Virus record (IMG/VR): IMGVR_UViG_3300025122_000008
Location: 34,426 to 98,425 of that record
From: a virus
Length of the DNA: 64,000 bases
Direction: 5' to 3' (one strand)
Part shown: positions 49,784-64,000 of the stretch, one piece after another
Position numbering within the stretch: position 1 is the first letter of the stretch
Layout: the number at the start of each line of letters is the position of its first letter
Notes under the pieces: model-generated
The model's input: the letters and a program-made list of their open reading frames with translations, nothing else
Told to the model about the DNA's origin: nothing
Database searches by the model: none
Program-made: the position numbers and the translations under genes

Positions 49784-50971
49784 TTGTATTTTCAAACGTT
49801 GGACAGCAAGGGCAAGTGTGTTGGATACTATGCTGATAATAAATTAATCTTTGACGAGGTACCACATAATGCGGCAAAAACATGGTGCTATTCTCCGTCC
49901 CTACAAAACCGTGATATAGAGTATGCTCGTATCTACGCTAGTGGTGCCACGCTTACGGAAGCATGCCCAGAGAGTTTTAGGCCAGAATGGGATGAAGTGG
50001 TGAAAAAGGCTGGAGCGTACTCCAAATCTTTTAATATAGCCAAACTAAATTTGAACGACGTGTGTATCTATGACCTGGTGCCAGAGTATTTTCTTTATAA
50101 ATTTTGTAAAGCAAAGGACCAGATAACTAAACACGTTATTGAGAACAACATAAAACCAAAAAATTATAATTTTATGGCCAGTCTTATACAAATGCTGTTC
50201 GACATTGGTTCACATCAAATGAATATTGATATAGAGCCGATTATGACAAAACTTGTATCAGTAAAGGGTAGAAATTTTATAAAAAAATTACAAGAAATTA
50301 ATTGGATTTGTCATTATAATCCTTTTGGCACCGTAACCGGGCGACTGACAACGATGCCCAATACATTTCCCATATTGACCCTCCCCAAAGAGTTTAGAAA
50401 TTGTCTTCATCCAACCAATGACTGGTTTTTAGAATTGGACTACAATGCGGCCGAGGTTCGTACTCTCTTGGGGCTCTCCGGGGTGGAACAACCAAGCGGC
50501 GACATTCACGAGTGGAATATTGAACATATTTATAATAATAAAATTTCACGACCGGCGGCCAAACAAAAGATTTTTGAGTGGCTATACTCCGCGCGCCCAA
50601 ATAAGCGCGCTGAGCAGTACTATAATAAAAAGCTGGTTAAAGAAAAATACTGGGACGGTTATAATGTAACTACCGAATTTGATCGGTGTATAAAAAATGT
50701 TGACGATCATCATGCTTTGAACTATATTGTTCAAAGTACAACCAGCGACTTAGTGCTTTCTAGAGCAATTAAAATTCATAATTTTTTGAAGAATAGAGGC
50801 AGTCGAATTGCTTTTATGCTGCATGATTCTATTATAGTAGATTTAAAACATGATGAAAGACACATGATACCAGAATTGATGAGTATGTTCGGTGACACTG
50901 ACTTTGGGGAGTATAAAGTTAACGTAGCATTGGGCAAAAGTTTTGGAAATATAAAAAAATTGAATTTATGA
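49784..50971 (+). CDS. Family A DNA polymerase domain, short form
   Basis: This 395-residue protein is read from a TTG behind AGGGGG; no in-frame ATG exists until far inside conserved sequence. The palm and fingers are present: FGTVTGRLTT, motif A with D219 in LELDYNAAEVR, and motif B with exact R256-x3-K260-x3-F264-x3-Y268 spacing. Motif C is H347-D348-S349, where Pol I has His-Asp-Glu. No 3'-5' exonuclease lies in this ORF, and the 5'-nuclease is a separate gene at 57086. It probably copies phage DNA, replacing the family B gp43 of T4, unless another polymerase lies outside the window. The N-terminal 140 residues are not recognised. Confidence 0.85.
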   Translation: MYFQTLDSKGKCVGYYADNKLIFDEVPHNAAKTWCYSPSLQNRDIEYARIYASGATLTEACPESFRPEWDEVVKKAGAYSKSFNIAKLNLNDVCIYDLVPEYFLYKFCKAKDQITKHVIENNIKPKNYNFMASLIQMLFDIGSHQMNIDIEPIMTKLVSVKGRNFIKKLQEINWICHYNPFGTVTGRLTTMPNTFPILTLPKEFRNCLHPTNDWFLELDYNAAEVRTLLGLSGVEQPSGDIHEWNIEHIYNNKISRPAAKQKIFEWLYSARPNKRAEQYYNKKLVKEKYWDGYNVTTEFDRCIKNVDDHHALNYIVQSTTSDLVLSRAIKIHNFLKNRGSRIAFMLHDSIIVDLKHDERHMIPELMSMFGDTDFGEYKVNVALGKSFGNIKKLNL

Positions 50972-52773: not shown

Positions 52774-52802
52774 TAAGATATAACCGATTGGAACCCCCCA
52801 CA

Positions 52803-54404
52803 ATGAGTGATAAATCTATGGACACCACCCCCGATGTAGAAAAATTGTTTGATATGATTTTTCCCTCCCTCGGATACACCTCTGAGTATGCTATAGGAGA
52901 TGTTTTTGACAACTCAGCGGATGCTGGCGCTGCCGAGATAGTATTGACTATCGTAGAGGCCGCTGAGACCGCCCAGATCGATAGCCTGGTGTTTGCAGAC
53001 AACGGGAAGGGCATGGGCCAGGAGATCCTCCAACAAGCATGCCGTTTCGCTGGTACGGCCGAGCACTCGCCTGAGGATTTAGGCAAGTATGGAATGGGCG
53101 GAACAGCAGCTTCATTTTTTCTAGCCAAAACGAAGTGCATTCTTACTAAGACAACAGATGGAGAGCTGCTCGGAGCGCAGGTAGATATCAATAACCGCAG
53201 CGCTCTCACTTTTCAGAATATTGCAGAGTTTATTAATATTAGCGAAGACTGTGAAAAGATATTTTATAAGTTTTTGCCGGGCGGGGAAGACCAAGAATCC
53301 GGTACGGTGATTTATCTGACGAATATCCGTAACGAGCGGCTAGAGGTTGAGACCGCCGTCCTTATGAAGAATCGTCTTGTAAAATTTTTGAGCGAAAGCT
53401 TTCGGCCCCTTATCGATGCGGGTATGAAGATTATCATTGAAGTACTTAAGAAAGGGGGGAAAGGCCTTAAGACGTCAGATGTCGTTGGAGGGTACGATCC
53501 CCTTTATCGTGATCATCCAGACTGCGTAGTCGAAAGCGGGTCGGAAGAAGTTGAATTCAAAGACTCTTCCATCGCTTTTAATTATTCTCTTTTGAAGCCT
53601 CGGGAATGTTCCCGGGTTGATAGAGAACGCGGCCGCCGTAATAAAGGGGGCGATGAGAGCAAGGCCATGGTGCTGGGGACTGGAGGTTATTTAATTCGCG
53701 GGCGCCGTCAAATTGTTGGCGCCTCCACTCTTTCGGGATTGTGGGGTCGAGATCCTCAGCTGTGCAACGCACGATTTGAGGTGATTTTTACTAGCGAACT
53801 AGATGATCATTTTGGTGCGACTGCACAAAAAAATAAAACCAACCTAAGTGCCGAGTTGAAAGCGGTCCTGAGACCAGTTGTCCAGAAGCTTAAGCGTCGT
53901 ACGCGATTGCGCTGGAGCACTCCTTCCAAGAAGAACACTCAGAAGGTTGCAGCTGTTGAAGCTCGCGAAATCAAAAAGATTGTAGATCCTAAAAACGCTG
54001 GGAGCATAGGAATTCCGAAGAGAAAACCTACTCCAAATCCTGCTGGAGGCCGCGGGCCCGATAAGGGCAAACGCTCGGCTAAGAAAAACTCCGGCACTGG
54101 CACCAACAAGCCCTATAAGAAAATACTTACGCGCCATGTTAGTGCTCCGATGCCGGGTTCTCACCCCTGGTGGTATGACTTCGATAATAATGGAGAAATA
54201 GTTATTTGTATTAATGACGCACATCCGTATATTAAAGAATTTTATACACGAGCCAGTGATGAAACTCAAACGGCGCTGCTAAGAAACTGGTTCGCTGGTT
54301 CGCTGGCAGAGCATAAATTTTATGAAACTGAGACAGCTGATCATCTTAGCTCGTATAAGAATGAATATGCTAACAGTTTGATGGCCATTTGCGTGGCCAA
54401 GTAA
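52803..54404 (+). CDS. GHKL-family ATPase, MORC/Hsp90-like
   Basis: This 533-residue protein starts at the ATG at 52803; an upstream in-frame TTG is less likely. The Bergerat ATP site is complete: D36-N37 in VFDNSADAGA, D66-N-G-K-G-M-G, and G94-x-x-G-x-GG in LGKYGMGG. Order and spacing resemble MORC and Hsp90/MutL ATPases, which clamp shut on ATP binding. A central part (about 150-350) looks like a transducer, a Lys/Pro/Gly-rich linker lies at about 405-440, and a C-terminal domain has GSHPWWYDFDNNGEI. T4-type topoisomerase gp39 is another GHKL protein, but I see no topoisomerase signature. It has its own sigma70 promoter. Substrate and partner are unknown. Confidence 0.75.
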   Translation: MSDKSMDTTPDVEKLFDMIFPSLGYTSEYAIGDVFDNSADAGAAEIVLTIVEAAETAQIDSLVFADNGKGMGQEILQQACRFAGTAEHSPEDLGKYGMGGTAASFFLAKTKCILTKTTDGELLGAQVDINNRSALTFQNIAEFINISEDCEKIFYKFLPGGEDQESGTVIYLTNIRNERLEVETAVLMKNRLVKFLSESFRPLIDAGMKIIIEVLKKGGKGLKTSDVVGGYDPLYRDHPDCVVESGSEEVEFKDSSIAFNYSLLKPRECSRVDRERGRRNKGGDESKAMVLGTGGYLIRGRRQIVGASTLSGLWGRDPQLCNARFEVIFTSELDDHFGATAQKNKTNLSAELKAVLRPVVQKLKRRTRLRWSTPSKKNTQKVAAVEAREIKKIVDPKNAGSIGIPKRKPTPNPAGGRGPDKGKRSAKKNSGTGTNKPYKKILTRHVSAPMPGSHPWWYDFDNNGEIVICINDAHPYIKEFYTRASDETQTALLRNWFAGSLAEHKFYETETADHLSSYKNEYANSLMAICVAK

Positions 54405-59445: not shown

Positions 59446-61857
59446 ATGTACACTGAAGGACAGGCAAAAGAGGCCAGTTTAAAATATTTTAACGATGATG
59501 AACTAGCAACAAACGTTTTTTTGACAAAATATTGTCTCAAAGATGGAAAAGGCAATTTTGTAGAAAAAACCCCCGATGATATGCACGGCCGCCTGGCTAA
59601 AGAATTTGCTCGTATTGAAAAAAAGTTTAAAGGAAGCCTTCTATCTGAGAAAGAAATATATGATTATTTAAAAGATTTTAAATATATTGTACCTCAAGGC
59701 TCTCCCATGATGGGGATAGGAAATGACTATGTTAATGTATCTCTATCTAACTGCGTGGTTATCGATAATCCAGAAGACAACATTTCGTCTATTATAGATA
59801 CCGGCAAAGACCTCGCTAATCTTTTTAAGCGGCGTTGCGGTGTTGGCCTTGATATCAGTGGCCTACGTCCGACTGGCGGCATTGTTAATAATTCGGCTCG
59901 CACTACTACTGGGGCTTGGAGTTTCGCTGATCTCTACTCTTACATCTGCCGGATGATTGGACAGAATGGCCGCCGCGGAGCGTTGATGATTTCGATGGAC
60001 GTGCGTCATCCCGACATTGAGCAGTTTGTGACGATGAAACACGACCTAACTAAAGTAACGGGGGCGAACGTATCCGTAAAGATAAGCGATAGCTTCATGG
60101 AGGCTGTTGAGAGCAACGATACGTTTACTTTACAGTTCCCCGTCGATGCTGAACACCCTGAATACACATCCGAGATTGATGCTAGTGCTCTCTGGAATAC
60201 CATTATCGAGTCGGCCACCAAAACCGCAGAGCCCGGGCTCCTAATGTGGGACAACATCACTAAGAATTTACCGGCTCATTCATATGCAGCCTTCGAGACC
60301 AAGACCACCAATCCTTGCGGGGAGATCCCCCTCTCAGCGTATGACTCGTGCAGGCTCATCTCTTTGAATTTGAAAAGTCTCGTGAAAAATTCTTTTGAAA
60401 AAAATGCAGATTTTGACTTTAATAAGCTGAAAGAAGTTTCAGCGGTAGGAATGCGCTTATCTGATGACTTGGTAGAACTGGAGTTAGAAAAGCTACAAAA
60501 TATACGCAAGTGTGCGGACACCGATGATGAAAAAAGTCTTTGGACTAAACTTTATGGCGCTGCATTCAACGGCCGCCGAACTGGTCTAGGTACTCACGGC
60601 TTGGCCGATGCGATTGCTTGCCTTAATCTGGCATATGATAGTCCCGAAGCCATTGTAATCATTGAAAAAATCTATCGCACTTTACGGGACGCAGCCTACG
60701 AAGAGAGCGTCTACCTAGCCCAAGAGCGTGGCCACTTTCCGGCCTTTGACTGGAGTGTTGAGGAAAACAACGAGTTTATTCAACGGTTACCGACATTCCT
60801 CAAGGAGTTGATTGCCAAGCATGGGCGCCGCAATATATCAATTCTTACAAATGCACCAACTGGCTCTGTTTCTATTATGTCACAGACTTCATCCGGCCTT
60901 GAGCCGGTGTTTAGAAATTCTTATGTTAGACGTCGCAAACTTTCCCATGATGAGCAGGATCTTGACGAAGACCATATAGATGATATGGGAGACAGGTGGG
61001 TAGAATATGAAGTGCTTCACCACAATGTTCAAGCGTGGTTTGAGCAGCACCCTCTCAAAACTCTAGGACCTCTACCTGATTTTTTTGTAGAGTCCGACAG
61101 CATTGATTGGACGCGCCGAGTCGCCGTTCAGGCGGCTATTCAACAATATATAGACCACAGCATTAGTTCAACAATTAATCTTCCAAAGGGTACCTCTTCT
61201 CAGTTGGTGGGGAATCTGTATATGGAAGGCTGGCGCCGTGGGCTCAAGGGGATCACAGTTTATGTAGATGGATCACGTTCGGGTGTGCTTCTTGTCGGAA
61301 AAGACCTTGGATTTCCGCAACACAAAGCACCCAAGCGCCCCACAGAGTTACCCTGTAACATTCATCACACCACGATTCAGGGAGAGAGGTGGATTATTTT
61401 AGTTGGCCTTATGGATGAAAAGCCCTATGAAATTATGGGGGGTCTTTCAAATTTGATTGAGATTCCAACCAAAGATACCGAAGGCATATTGGTTAAGCAC
61501 TCTCGAAAGTCAATGAATTCTATATATGATTTAAAAATTGGGAGGAACGGCGACAGCATCGTTGTAAAAAATTTAGTTAAAGTTTTTGATAATCCCAACC
61601 ATTCTGCTTTCACTAGAATGATTTCGCTCGGGCTGCGCCATGGAGCGAATATTCAGTATGTTGTGGAACAGTTACAGAAGGATCGAGATAGCGATATGTT
61701 TAGTTTTGCTCGTTGTATTGCTCGTATTTTAAAGAACTATATTCCAGATGGTCAAACGGCAACAGAAAAGACTTGCGGCGAGTGTGGTACCGAAGGATTG
61801 GTTTACGTTGAGGGCTGTATCACTTGTAATAATTGTGGCTTTGCTAGATGCGGATAG
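59446..61857 (+). CDS. nrdJ: Class II (adenosylcobalamin-dependent) ribonucleotide reductase
   Basis: This 803-residue enzyme reduces ribonucleotides to deoxyribonucleotides. The active site is clear: C103 in LSNCVVID (first redox Cys), N289-P-C291-G-E293 (radical Cys and general base), then NAPTGSVSIMSQTSSGLEP and the substrate segment NLPKGTSS. No small subunit lies nearby, consistent with the B12-dependent class. About residues 630-750 resemble the TSCPD/NrdJ C-terminal domain, and the end holds CGECGTEG...CITCNNCG, zinc-ribbon-like Cys pairs that may deliver electrons. It starts five bases after the helicase. T4 uses class I NrdAB, so this is a different solution requiring host cobalamin. 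Confidence 0.9.
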   Translation: MYTEGQAKEASLKYFNDDELATNVFLTKYCLKDGKGNFVEKTPDDMHGRLAKEFARIEKKFKGSLLSEKEIYDYLKDFKYIVPQGSPMMGIGNDYVNVSLSNCVVIDNPEDNISSIIDTGKDLANLFKRRCGVGLDISGLRPTGGIVNNSARTTTGAWSFADLYSYICRMIGQNGRRGALMISMDVRHPDIEQFVTMKHDLTKVTGANVSVKISDSFMEAVESNDTFTLQFPVDAEHPEYTSEIDASALWNTIIESATKTAEPGLLMWDNITKNLPAHSYAAFETKTTNPCGEIPLSAYDSCRLISLNLKSLVKNSFEKNADFDFNKLKEVSAVGMRLSDDLVELELEKLQNIRKCADTDDEKSLWTKLYGAAFNGRRTGLGTHGLADAIACLNLAYDSPEAIVIIEKIYRTLRDAAYEESVYLAQERGHFPAFDWSVEENNEFIQRLPTFLKELIAKHGRRNISILTNAPTGSVSIMSQTSSGLEPVFRNSYVRRRKLSHDEQDLDEDHIDDMGDRWVEYEVLHHNVQAWFEQHPLKTLGPLPDFFVESDSIDWTRRVAVQAAIQQYIDHSISSTINLPKGTSSQLVGNLYMEGWRRGLKGITVYVDGSRSGVLLVGKDLGFPQHKAPKRPTELPCNIHHTTIQGERWIILVGLMDEKPYEIMGGLSNLIEIPTKDTEGILVKHSRKSMNSIYDLKIGRNGDSIVVKNLVKVFDNPNHSAFTRMISLGLRHGANIQYVVEQLQKDRDSDMFSFARCIARILKNYIPDGQTATEKTCGECGTEGLVYVEGCITCNNCGFARCG

Positions 61858-61868
61858 CTAATTAGAAT

Positions 61869-62177
61869 ATGATAAATTTTACAGAAAAAGCAGTAGCTCA
61901 TCTTAAGTCGGTCTTAGAGGCGGGAGAGATGGTGCGTATAGGAGTAGTGGGCGGAGGCTGTTCGGGGATGTCCTATGCCCTAAACATTGAAACCGAAACT
62001 GATGAAGAAGACATTCGCTTGAACTATGAAGAGGTGGATATTTATTTAGATCCTTATAGTTCTGAAATTTTAAAAGATACTATTGTAGACTATATTACAA
62101 CACTACAGCAACAAGGATTTAAATTTATGAATCCGAATGCCAACACCACATGTGGGTGTGGTTCATCATTTAGTTAG
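61869..62177 (+). CDS. iscA: A-type iron-sulfur carrier (IscA/HesB family)
   Basis: This 102-residue protein is of standard family length. The three cluster-binding cysteines are present: C31 in GGGCSGMSY and C95/C97 in TTCGCGSSF at the C-terminus. A-type carriers take clusters from the scaffold IscU and deliver them to target proteins. It lies 11 bases after the RNR gene and 12 bases before iscU, so it is part of the same transcript. ErpA and SufA share these motifs, so the exact subtype is not fixed. Confidence 0.9.
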   Translation: MINFTEKAVAHLKSVLEAGEMVRIGVVGGGCSGMSYALNIETETDEEDIRLNYEEVDIYLDPYSSEILKDTIVDYITTLQQQGFKFMNPNANTTCGCGSSFS

Positions 62178-62189
62178 GGGAAACAAATT

Positions 62190-62564
62190 ATGGCTTATTC
62201 TAAAAAAGTATTAGACCACTTTGAAAGACCACAGAATGTGGGATCTCTGGACAAAAAGGACCCCCGAGTCGGTACTGGGGTAGTCGGCGCCCCGGAGTGT
62301 GGGGATGTGATGAAATTACAAATTAAGATAGACGAAAATAATTGTATTTGTGATGCAAAGTTTAAAACATTTGGTTGTGGCTCCGCCATTGCCGCCTCCT
62401 CTCTAGCAACCGAGTGGATTAAGGGAAAAACTTTAACGGAAGCCGCACAGATTAAAAATACAGATATCGTGGAAGAACTGGCGCTCCCTCCCGTTAAAAT
62501 ACATTGCTCGGTCCTGGCGGAAGAGGCAATCAAAGCCGCGATACAAGATTTGGAAAATAAATGA
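62190..62564 (+). CDS. iscU: Iron-sulfur cluster scaffold IscU
   Basis: This 124-residue protein matches E. coli IscU in length and numbering. C37 and D39 lie in GAPECGD, C63 in FGCGSAIAASS, and H105/C106 in KIHCSV. The LPPVK motif at 99-103 is the docking site for the chaperone HscA. All cluster-assembly residues are therefore intact, and the product should be able to build [2Fe-2S] clusters with a host cysteine desulfurase (IscS); none is encoded in this window. It ends with an ATGA overlap with the GroES-like gene. Confidence 0.93.
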   Translation: MAYSKKVLDHFERPQNVGSLDKKDPRVGTGVVGAPECGDVMKLQIKIDENNCICDAKFKTFGCGSAIAASSLATEWIKGKTLTEAAQIKNTDIVEELALPPVKIHCSVLAEEAIKAAIQDLENK

Positions 62565-62836
62565 TATTTACACCGGTTAATAATTATGTATATGTTGAAA
62601 TAGTTGAGGAAAAGAAAAACGAAGTAGCGATATTATTACCCCACGACTACCAGCCCTCCGAGGAACCATTTGTCGTTGTACGCGTTGTAAAACAAAGTGA
62701 GACGTCAACCGGCATCTGGATGGAGGGCGCGTGTTTGGTGGTAGAAGCTCGAATGCTTCAACGTATACAATATTCTGGAAGTTCTTTTACGGTTATTAAG
62801 GAAAATTATATTATAGGTCTGCTCGATCTAGAATGA
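62561..62836 (+). CDS. GroES-like co-chaperonin (gp31-type)
   Basis: This 91-residue protein is about GroES size (97 residues; T4 gp31 has 111). The GroES pattern is visible: an opening TPVNNYVYVEIVEE, a mobile-loop-like KKNEVAILLPHD with hydrophobic tripeptide ILL, and the closing FTVIKENYIIGLLD. T4 gp31 replaces GroES so that GroEL can fold the large capsid protein gp23. The capsid protein here is even larger (612 residues). Translational coupling to iscU (ATGA) and to the next gene (ATGA) is direct. Confidence is moderate because GroES sequences diverge widely. Confidence 0.65.
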   Translation: MIFTPVNNYVYVEIVEEKKNEVAILLPHDYQPSEEPFVVVRVVKQSETSTGIWMEGACLVVEARMLQRIQYSGSSFTVIKENYIIGLLDLE

Positions 62837-63558
62837 CGGCTCTATTAAAATTAAAAAAGGTTGTTGTCGGTTATACCTTACAGGCTCTTCGTTACGCCAA
62901 TATAAATAACGCAACTCTTCTAGTAAACGACGTACAAACACCAAATGAAATAACAAACAAGGAGGATTCACTAGAGTGGTATAGATTAAGCTTTGAATTG
63001 GGTATGCGAGGTTTGTTGTTGGCACCATCCCGCGTAGAAAACATTAGGATCGATGAGAATCTTGTCAAGATAACTACGGAGAACTATAATTTAATCAAGT
63101 GTTCCTTTGATGAACTCTATATTTTTAATTTAGAACGGGTGGAGGGTATACCCGCAGAGGAAAGTGTAGAACAGTACGTTGTATATGACTGGTTCGATAT
63201 AAAGCGAGGCGCCAAACAACCATCATGTAGAGTTTTAACCTCAAAAGATTTTGTTAGGGAACTGGTTTTTTATCCTTCGATTAGAAAAGACGGCAACAAT
63301 GGAATCTTTAAGGACTGCTATACAAAATCGTTTATAAAGCCGCGGCACCTGAAAGAGTTTGAGTATTCTGAGACGTCGGCCAGACTTAAAGCATTAAATC
63401 TGATGATGCGAAATGGCTTCTCGGGACCAGCCCGTCAAGTTGCCGAAAAGAATTATCATCTCAGTATAGTTTTAGAACACAGCAGGAGAGAACTTTATAA
63501 ATTTAAAAAGTCCTATTCCATAAATGATGACTTACCCGAGAACATATTTTTATTGTGA
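62833..63558 (+). CDS. Conserved hypothetical protein
   Basis: This 241-residue soluble protein starts with an ATGA overlap. It has an N-terminal alpha/beta region with a NNATLLVNDVQTPNEITNKEDSLEW segment, a middle 'YVVYDWFDIKRGAKQPSCRVLTSKDF' and a charged helical C-terminus ending in ENIFLL. I recall similar open reading frames beside nucleotide-metabolism genes in marine T4-like phages without an assigned function. No catalytic or metal motif is seen. The coupling with the GroES-like gene suggests co-expression, not a shared function. Confidence 0.5.
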   Translation: MTALLKLKKVVVGYTLQALRYANINNATLLVNDVQTPNEITNKEDSLEWYRLSFELGMRGLLLAPSRVENIRIDENLVKITTENYNLIKCSFDELYIFNLERVEGIPAEESVEQYVVYDWFDIKRGAKQPSCRVLTSKDFVRELVFYPSIRKDGNNGIFKDCYTKSFIKPRHLKEFEYSETSARLKALNLMMRNGFSGPARQVAEKNYHLSIVLEHSRRELYKFKKSYSINDDLPENIFLL

Positions 63559-63567
63559 GATGCACCG

Positions 63568-64000
63568 GTGGAACTCGGAAAACTAGATAAAAACTCTTTT
63601 CACTTGGCTGGAATAATCCCAGTTGCAGGATCTACTACAGAGTTTAATATTCCGGGCCATGGTGTTTTGATGCCGGTATCTCCCGATCTGAACCTAATAG
63701 AACGTTCGGTTTTAGAGTGTGCTTATGCTGGCTGTGAATCAATTTGGATAGTTTGCAATGACGATATAGCACCAGTTGTTAAATATTATGTGGGGGATTG
63801 GGTAGAGGACCCGTCTTCAATCGAAGCAGGCCTTTATATTAAATATACCGAGAAGTCACGTTTATCTATTCCGATTTATTATGTCCCAATACATCCCAAA
63901 CATAGAGATAAGATAGATTGTTATGCGTGGTCTATACTTCATGGCGCCAACGTTGCATATTGGATATGTCGTCGGCTTGGTAGGTGGTTAATTCCCGACA
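63568..64000 (+). CDS. Nucleotidyltransferase/glycosyltransferase-like protein, 3' end outside window
   Basis: The frame is open from a GTG at 63568 to the window end (144 codons seen). An ATG at 63560 is in another frame. The start LAGIIPVAG and GHGVLMPVSPDLNLIERSVLECAYAGCESIWIVCNDD resemble the N-terminal Rossmann-type domain of sugar-nucleotide transferases: an 'IIPvAG' loop, then a 'MPV' site and a 'Cxxag.e.IwIv' strand. The later IPIHPKHRDKIDCYAWSILHGAN supports an enzyme that shuttles substrates. I recall similar proteins in marine phages. The substrate cannot be told from this fragment. Confidence 0.5.
   Translation, partial: MELGKLDKNSFHLAGIIPVAGSTTEFNIPGHGVLMPVSPDLNLIERSVLECAYAGCESIWIVCNDDIAPVVKYYVGDWVEDPSSIEAGLYIKYTEKSRLSIPIYYVPIHPKHRDKIDCYAWSILHGANVAYWICRRLGRWLIPD

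Follow-up and report, generated by a model that had tools for sequence, protein, structure and literature searches.

Why should a phage carry a scaffold and a carrier for iron-sulfur (Fe-S) cluster assembly between a ribonucleotide reductase gene and a gene resembling a co-chaperonin? For years such genes have been recorded in phages, with no clear client to go with them. The pair considered here lies in the right-hand 64 kb of the linear 98,425-bp virus record IMGVR_UViG_3300025122_000008, a stretch of 64,000 nucleotides that we call the window. An earlier note on this DNA, made from the letters of the window, had described an IscA-IscU pair coupled to a GroES-like co-chaperonin and had proposed that the phage uses it to boost or redirect cluster assembly.

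Genes of the locus

The record ends inside a gene, the one following the 62833..63558 open reading frame (ORF), which means that the phage genome is incomplete; judged by relatives of 148-194 kb, some 70 kb of it is probably missing. Across the locus, for at least 11,436 nt, the sequence is shared at 100% identity with a second record, IMGVR_UViG_3300002519_001430. A run of phage genes on the + strand encodes, in this order, an exonuclease, a DnaB-like helicase, a class II (adenosylcobalamin-dependent) ribonucleotide reductase (RNR) of the NrdJ type (59446..61857; 480 bits against TIGR02504 NrdJ_Z, cut-off 400), an A-type Fe-S carrier (61869..62177), the scaffold IscU (62190..62564), a GroES/gp31-like protein (62561..62836) and two conserved proteins to which no function is assigned. 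The three ORFs that follow the RNR lie where the earlier note had placed them, and their tight packing is confirmed: 11 nt separate the RNR and carrier genes, 12 nt the carrier and IscU genes, and ATGA overlaps join IscU to the GroES-like gene and the latter to the following ORF. This next ORF (62833..63558, +) keeps its position in relatives and has no match in Pfam, NCBIfam, PHROG or the defence-system library PADLOC. The last ORF (63568..63999, +) has lost its 3' part at the record end, and its full-length homologue in locus L026 of the relative G003 comprises 305 aa.

Further genes deserve mention in passing. The window encodes at 49784-50971 a 395-aa protein with only a partial match to DNA polymerase family A (PF00476), possibly a remnant or a repurposed fragment, and at 52788-54404 a 538-aa protein with a GHKL (HSP90/gyrase-like) ATPase domain. 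In G003, the region downstream of the locus (L026:12299-19773) carries genes for a DNA polymerase III alpha-type protein, an adenylosuccinate synthetase-like protein (the PurA model scores far above PurZ, both below cut-off), dUTPase and an IMP dehydrogenase/GMP reductase-like protein, which together amount to an unusual purine metabolism for a T4-like phage. About 12 small paralogous proteins that start like MKIGDLV are encoded in one stretch of the same relative (L094, G003:1-20000).

By its curated profile the scaffold is a true IscU, scoring 208.3 bits against TIGR01999 iscU where the equivalog cut-off is 192.4. Every catalytic residue claimed for it previously (C37, D39, C63, H105, C106 and the L99-PPVK-103 motif) is present in the ORF; the ligand and LPPVK positions are kept in 59 of 59 viral IscU rows, and the protein is predicted to be an intact scaffold. 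Purifying selection acts on IscU and on the A-type carrier alike, the median dN/dS, taken from unsaturated pairs only, being 0.059 for the former and 0.073 for the latter.

The name IscA fits the carrier less well. Its membership of the A-type family (IscA/ErpA/SufA; PF01521, 2e-21) and its C31, C95 and C97 residues are as described before, these positions being kept in 29-30 of 30 viral IscA rows. The protein passes the general A-type-carrier model TIGR00049 (106.8 bits, cut-off 58.8) but falls below the equivalog cut-offs for ErpA (PRK13623, 88.6 against 117), SufA (82.6 against 136) and IscA proper (TIGR02011, 76.0 against 150.6), ErpA being the nearest. In the tree it lies outside the proteobacterial IscA clade, and bacterial A-type proteins are at most ~43% identical to it. 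Since only the general model is passed, it is better named an A-type carrier; IscA is used below merely as its label.

By sequence, the product of the third gene resembles GroES only below threshold (E 0.02-0.04; 14.3 bits against PF00166, curated cut-off 21.1). Its homologues in relatives reach up to 19.0 bits with the whole domain covered, and a profile built from ten GroES-like sequences and run against the PDB retrieved Chaperonin 11 (E 2e-4). In an AlphaFold (AF2) model of moderate confidence (pLDDT 71), residues 18-33 are disordered, like the mobile loop of GroES, and Foldseek matches 1-35 are all chaperonin or co-chaperonin entries, T4 gp31 among them. A tblastn search of phage records with the GroES-like protein, too divergent for this purpose, gave no match. 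The predicted fold is thus that of GroES, well supported despite the sub-threshold sequence score, and in this sense the earlier designation stands, although the protein misses the curated PF00166 cut-off.

GroEL is encoded in the relatives G003, G007, G009 and G012 (596 bits against TIGR02348 in G003, cut-off 582); the corresponding region lies past the end of the window record. Relatives that reach far enough have GroEL, mostly together with Hsp20, some 13-18 kb beyond the GroES-like gene. As relatives encode GroEL, the GroES-like protein appears to belong to a phage chaperonin system, outside the Fe-S system, and most likely serves the phage GroEL as its partner.

Phage ancestry and the variable slot

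A scan of IMG/VR with the window IscU gave 153 relatives, 80 of which were kept. About 30 of these 80 have the gene context exonuclease-DnaB-RNR-[IscA]-IscU-GroES-like. Trees against bacterial homologues, a check suggested by the earlier note, place both proteins in phage-only clades. In that of IscU, which includes 74 bacterial rows, a phage-family clade of 27 rows contains no bacterium (SH-aLRT 91) and is nested in a larger viral group with weak support (76); the carrier falls in a 13-row phage-only clade with a support of 99 and a long stem. Matches to isc genes of 'Acinetobacter phage MD-2021a' (L004, CAKLQF020000009) were dropped because a complete isc operon amid housekeeping genes looks like a bacterial chromosome mislabelled as phage. 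The nearest IscU of the bacterial collection (78%) resides on a 3.9-kb contig binned as Candidatus Niyogibacteria (L142, JACOVJ010000072.1), which is devoid of an isc operon and possibly misbinned.

The content of the interval bordered by the RNR on the left and the GroES-like gene on the right was sampled independently of the presence of IscU, by scanning with the RNR and GroES-like proteins. The comparison comprises 72 related RNR loci, one of them identical to that of the window, and the RNR is the left neighbour in all 72. Four states are encountered: both IscA and IscU (13 loci), IscU only (11), IscA only (9) and neither (39). On the RNR tree, the presence of IscU changes at least 13 times and that of IscA at least 15 times, by gain or loss. 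Loci L314 (both genes) and L363 (neither) have RNR genes that are 93% identical; in L363 a ribosome-binding site and the start codon of the GroES-like gene come immediately after the RNR stop codon, a clean Isc-free junction. Because the RNR and GroES-like genes are neighbours with or without Isc genes, they are the constant element of the locus, and the Isc genes are cargo. Sister phages that differ at one site in having both Isc genes, one of them or none provide a ready-made comparison for gene function.

The slot also accepts other cargo. Some slots are occupied by other small ORFs, and extra genes, one encoding a Cys-rich, HNH-like protein and one unrelated, lie between IscU and the GroES-like gene at L013:10372-11184 and L017:10353-11588. 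A hidden divergent IscA was considered in the 316-317-bp RNR-GroES gaps of L374 and L376; the sequence is that of a different small ORF. At L073:9693-10336 and in L070 (relatives G007 and G018), the IscA/IscU ends look shortened or fused, either by decay or by assembly error.

In 44 of the 80 viral loci with IscU, a gene of the IscA family lies no more than 3 kb from it. With this count, and phage iscU/erpA genes already published, the special character ascribed earlier to a complete pair, as opposed to a lone HesB, was overstated. A scan of viral contigs for IscA alone, made with weak peptide patterns, gave just 2 loci.

Candidate clients and the role of the pair

The absence of IscS, remarked on for the window, extends to the full 98,425-bp record, and this cysteine desulfurase was not found in 20 related virus records either. 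With the Shewanella genes as reference, homologues of IscR, IscS, HscB, HscA, Fdx and IscX were not found in the 80 viral loci and 13 records. As no IscS occurs in the sequences searched, the sulfur would have to be supplied by host IscS. Ferredoxins of other types occur in G001 and G040.

The window had been said to show no Fe-S client, and none was found in it or in the rest of the 98,425-bp record, where radical SAM proteins were not found and the ten Cys-rich proteins scanned gave no Fe-S family. The relatives are more informative. Contigs G001/G002 and G004, which join the left end of the window record by synteny, represent two related phages in which an operon has the order radical SAM/SPASM, IscA, IscU, RfbH. 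Their IscA-IscU pair is 67-68% and 82-83% identical to that of the window and falls in the same clades (support 99 and 91). In G001/G002 the operon genes are followed by those for a 4Fe-4S ferredoxin and a B12-binding radical SAM protein, and another B12-binding radical SAM gene lies upstream in G004. The RfbH family holds a [2Fe-2S] cluster; RfbH of these operons scores 456-462 bits (curated cut-off 423) and keeps several conserved Cys. RfbH is also found in G036 (194 kb, IscA only; 472 bits), while G040 (148 kb, IscA and IscU) has an FdxA-type ferredoxin slightly under the cut-off (123 bits against 135).

A Cas4-like PD-(D/E)XK nuclease is present in all large relatives examined, Isc-bearing or Isc-free, and the 3 copies inspected all have four Cys arranged in the manner of Cas4. 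It is the sole candidate client in G003 (171 kb), which keeps IscU, and it is also present in G037, G038 and G039, from which the Isc genes are absent. Of the large genomes, 4 of the 5 with Isc genes and none of the 3 without them encode an Fe-S enzyme other than the Cas4-like nuclease (Fisher p = 0.07; some contigs are partial), an association of Isc genes with further Fe-S clients that is suggestive only.

Two candidate clients were rejected. Radical SAM proteins were not found in G003, G040, G036-G039 or the window record and do not qualify as the universal client. The RNR is linked to the pair by adjacency only: its C-terminal Cys resemble the usual class II tail, it is kept in Isc-free loci, and an adenosylcobalamin-dependent RNR is not itself known to carry an Fe-S cluster.

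We favour the interpretation that a T4-like marine phage family carries the pair as an accessory cassette for Fe-S assembly, which probably feeds phage Fe-S proteins by way of host IscS. The phage IscU would act as an extra scaffold on host IscS, in concert with host HscBA and ferredoxin. The A-type carrier would then hand finished clusters to phage Fe-S proteins that are made in bulk during infection, at a rate that may outrun the host cluster supply. Depending on the phage, the likely clients would be the Cas4-like nuclease, ferredoxins, RfbH-type dehydrases and radical SAM sugar-modifying enzymes. The cassette itself lies in the variable slot between the class II RNR and GroES-like genes or, in some relatives, inside a client operon. 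What the sequences show is the identity of the genes, their catalytic residues, phage ancestry and purifying selection, the slot pattern, the lack of IscS and HscBA in the sequences searched and the client operons of relatives; that clusters are built on host IscS, which way they are passed on and what client the window phage has are inferences. The earlier proposal of a boost to cluster assembly for a phage Fe-S enzyme encoded outside the window is plausible to the extent that relatives carry such enzymes, some adjoining the same pair, though none was found in the 98-kb record. The radical SAM/IscA/IscU/RfbH operon of close relatives makes the idea of a supply to phage enzymes directly testable. 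It is also conceivable, if on balance doubtful, that the cassette moves within one phage family between the RNR/GroES slot and an operon encoding the phage Fe-S enzymes that it serves, its presence tracking the number of Fe-S clients in each phage. If true, IscA-IscU would represent a dedicated, exchangeable cofactor supply line.

Alternatively, the pair could prop up host Fe-S proteins (in respiration, cofactor synthesis and possibly the provision of corrinoid for the class II RNR) when the host can no longer make enough of its own or iron becomes limiting, with no dedicated phage client. That phages of this clade have their Isc genes next to the class II RNR would agree with such a general supply, as would the IscU of G003, which has no client beyond the Cas4-like nuclease, and the wide distribution of Fe-S cluster genes in marine viruses, as seen in the IMG/VR scan and in PMC5332604. 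However, the same pair sits within a phage Fe-S enzyme operon in relatives. Moreover, the neighbouring RNR is of a type not known to carry a cluster, and 39 of the 72 RNR loci are without an Isc gene. We consider this explanation unlikely.

Quite improbable is the notion that phage IscU binds host IscS so as to compete with other sulfur acceptors such as TusA and ThiI, and that tRNA thiolation in the host, or other sulfur traffic, is thereby reduced to the advantage of the phage. The fully conserved LPPVK motif and the 11 of 72 loci with IscU but no carrier would fit this diversion. Yet the cluster ligands, D39 included, are fully conserved as well, which simple competition would not require, and 13 loci have an A-type carrier along with IscU, 9 a carrier alone. 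The many changes of state on the RNR tree (at least 13 and 15) and the truncated appearance of the copies in G007 and G018 might indicate a recently captured passenger that brings no lasting benefit and is being lost. The dN/dS of 0.06-0.07, the full ligand conservation and the long phage-only stems argue against this, and we give it little credence.

The proposed coupling of IscA-IscU to the GroES-like protein, by which the maturation of Fe-S enzymes would include a chaperonin step of its own, fares worse still. It could invoke the tight ATGA overlap between the IscU and GroES-like genes and a gene order that is conserved wherever IscU is present, but it is largely refuted by the slot comparison: in 39 of 72 loci no Isc gene stands between the RNR and GroES-like genes, and where close relatives are compared, such as L363 with L314, the Isc-free junction is precise. 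In addition, the relatives have their own GroEL, located elsewhere, and the pair of G001 and G004 has no GroES neighbour; the coupling is thus very improbable. An assembly chimera or bacterial contamination is effectively ruled out by the phage-only clades of both Isc proteins, the phage genes that flank the pair within one operon, the same locus in about 30 related contigs and the identical second record.

Relation to known systems

Phage loci of this kind are already known. Nishimura et al. 2017 (PMC5332604; 16 genomes) reported T4-like marine viral genomes with IscU and/or an A-type carrier and without the rest of ISC, some of which also have radical SAM and Cas4 genes, and a supply of clusters to viral Fe-S proteins was already proposed there; the RNR/GroES slot, its four states and the RfbH operon are not described in the available excerpt of that paper. 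HMO-2011-type marine phages (2022, PMC9038755), a different viral group, carry the same genes for an IscU scaffold (iscU) and an ErpA-type carrier (erpA). PHROGs holds a family 'NifU-like Fe-S cluster assembly protein', and phage C48C1 (Kyanoviridae, OQ984149) has an IscU of 66% identity encoded close to a DnaB-like helicase, as in the window phage; unlike the latter, it has no annotated A-type carrier or GroES adjoining IscU. Fe-S terms were not found in the text of Hurwitz 2013. Among open papers, we found no earlier description of an RNR/GroES slot with four interchangeable states or of an IscA-IscU operon with RfbH and radical SAM.

The bacterial isc operon (iscRSUA-hscBA-fdx) likewise has adjacent genes for IscU and an A-type protein, with the same catalytic residues. 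In contrast, the phage order is IscA followed by IscU rather than the reverse, the phage locus is without IscR, IscS, HscBA and Fdx, and its carrier is an ErpA-like outlier rather than the IscA of the isc operon. As to the chaperonin component, the GroES fold is common to T4 gp31 and the GroES-like protein of the window. In Flavobacterium phage immuto, the immuto phages being among the nearest sequenced phages by terminase (~46%), GroES and GroEL adjoin, whereas the GroES-like gene described here adjoins the RNR, and GroEL lies ~13-15 kb away in relatives.
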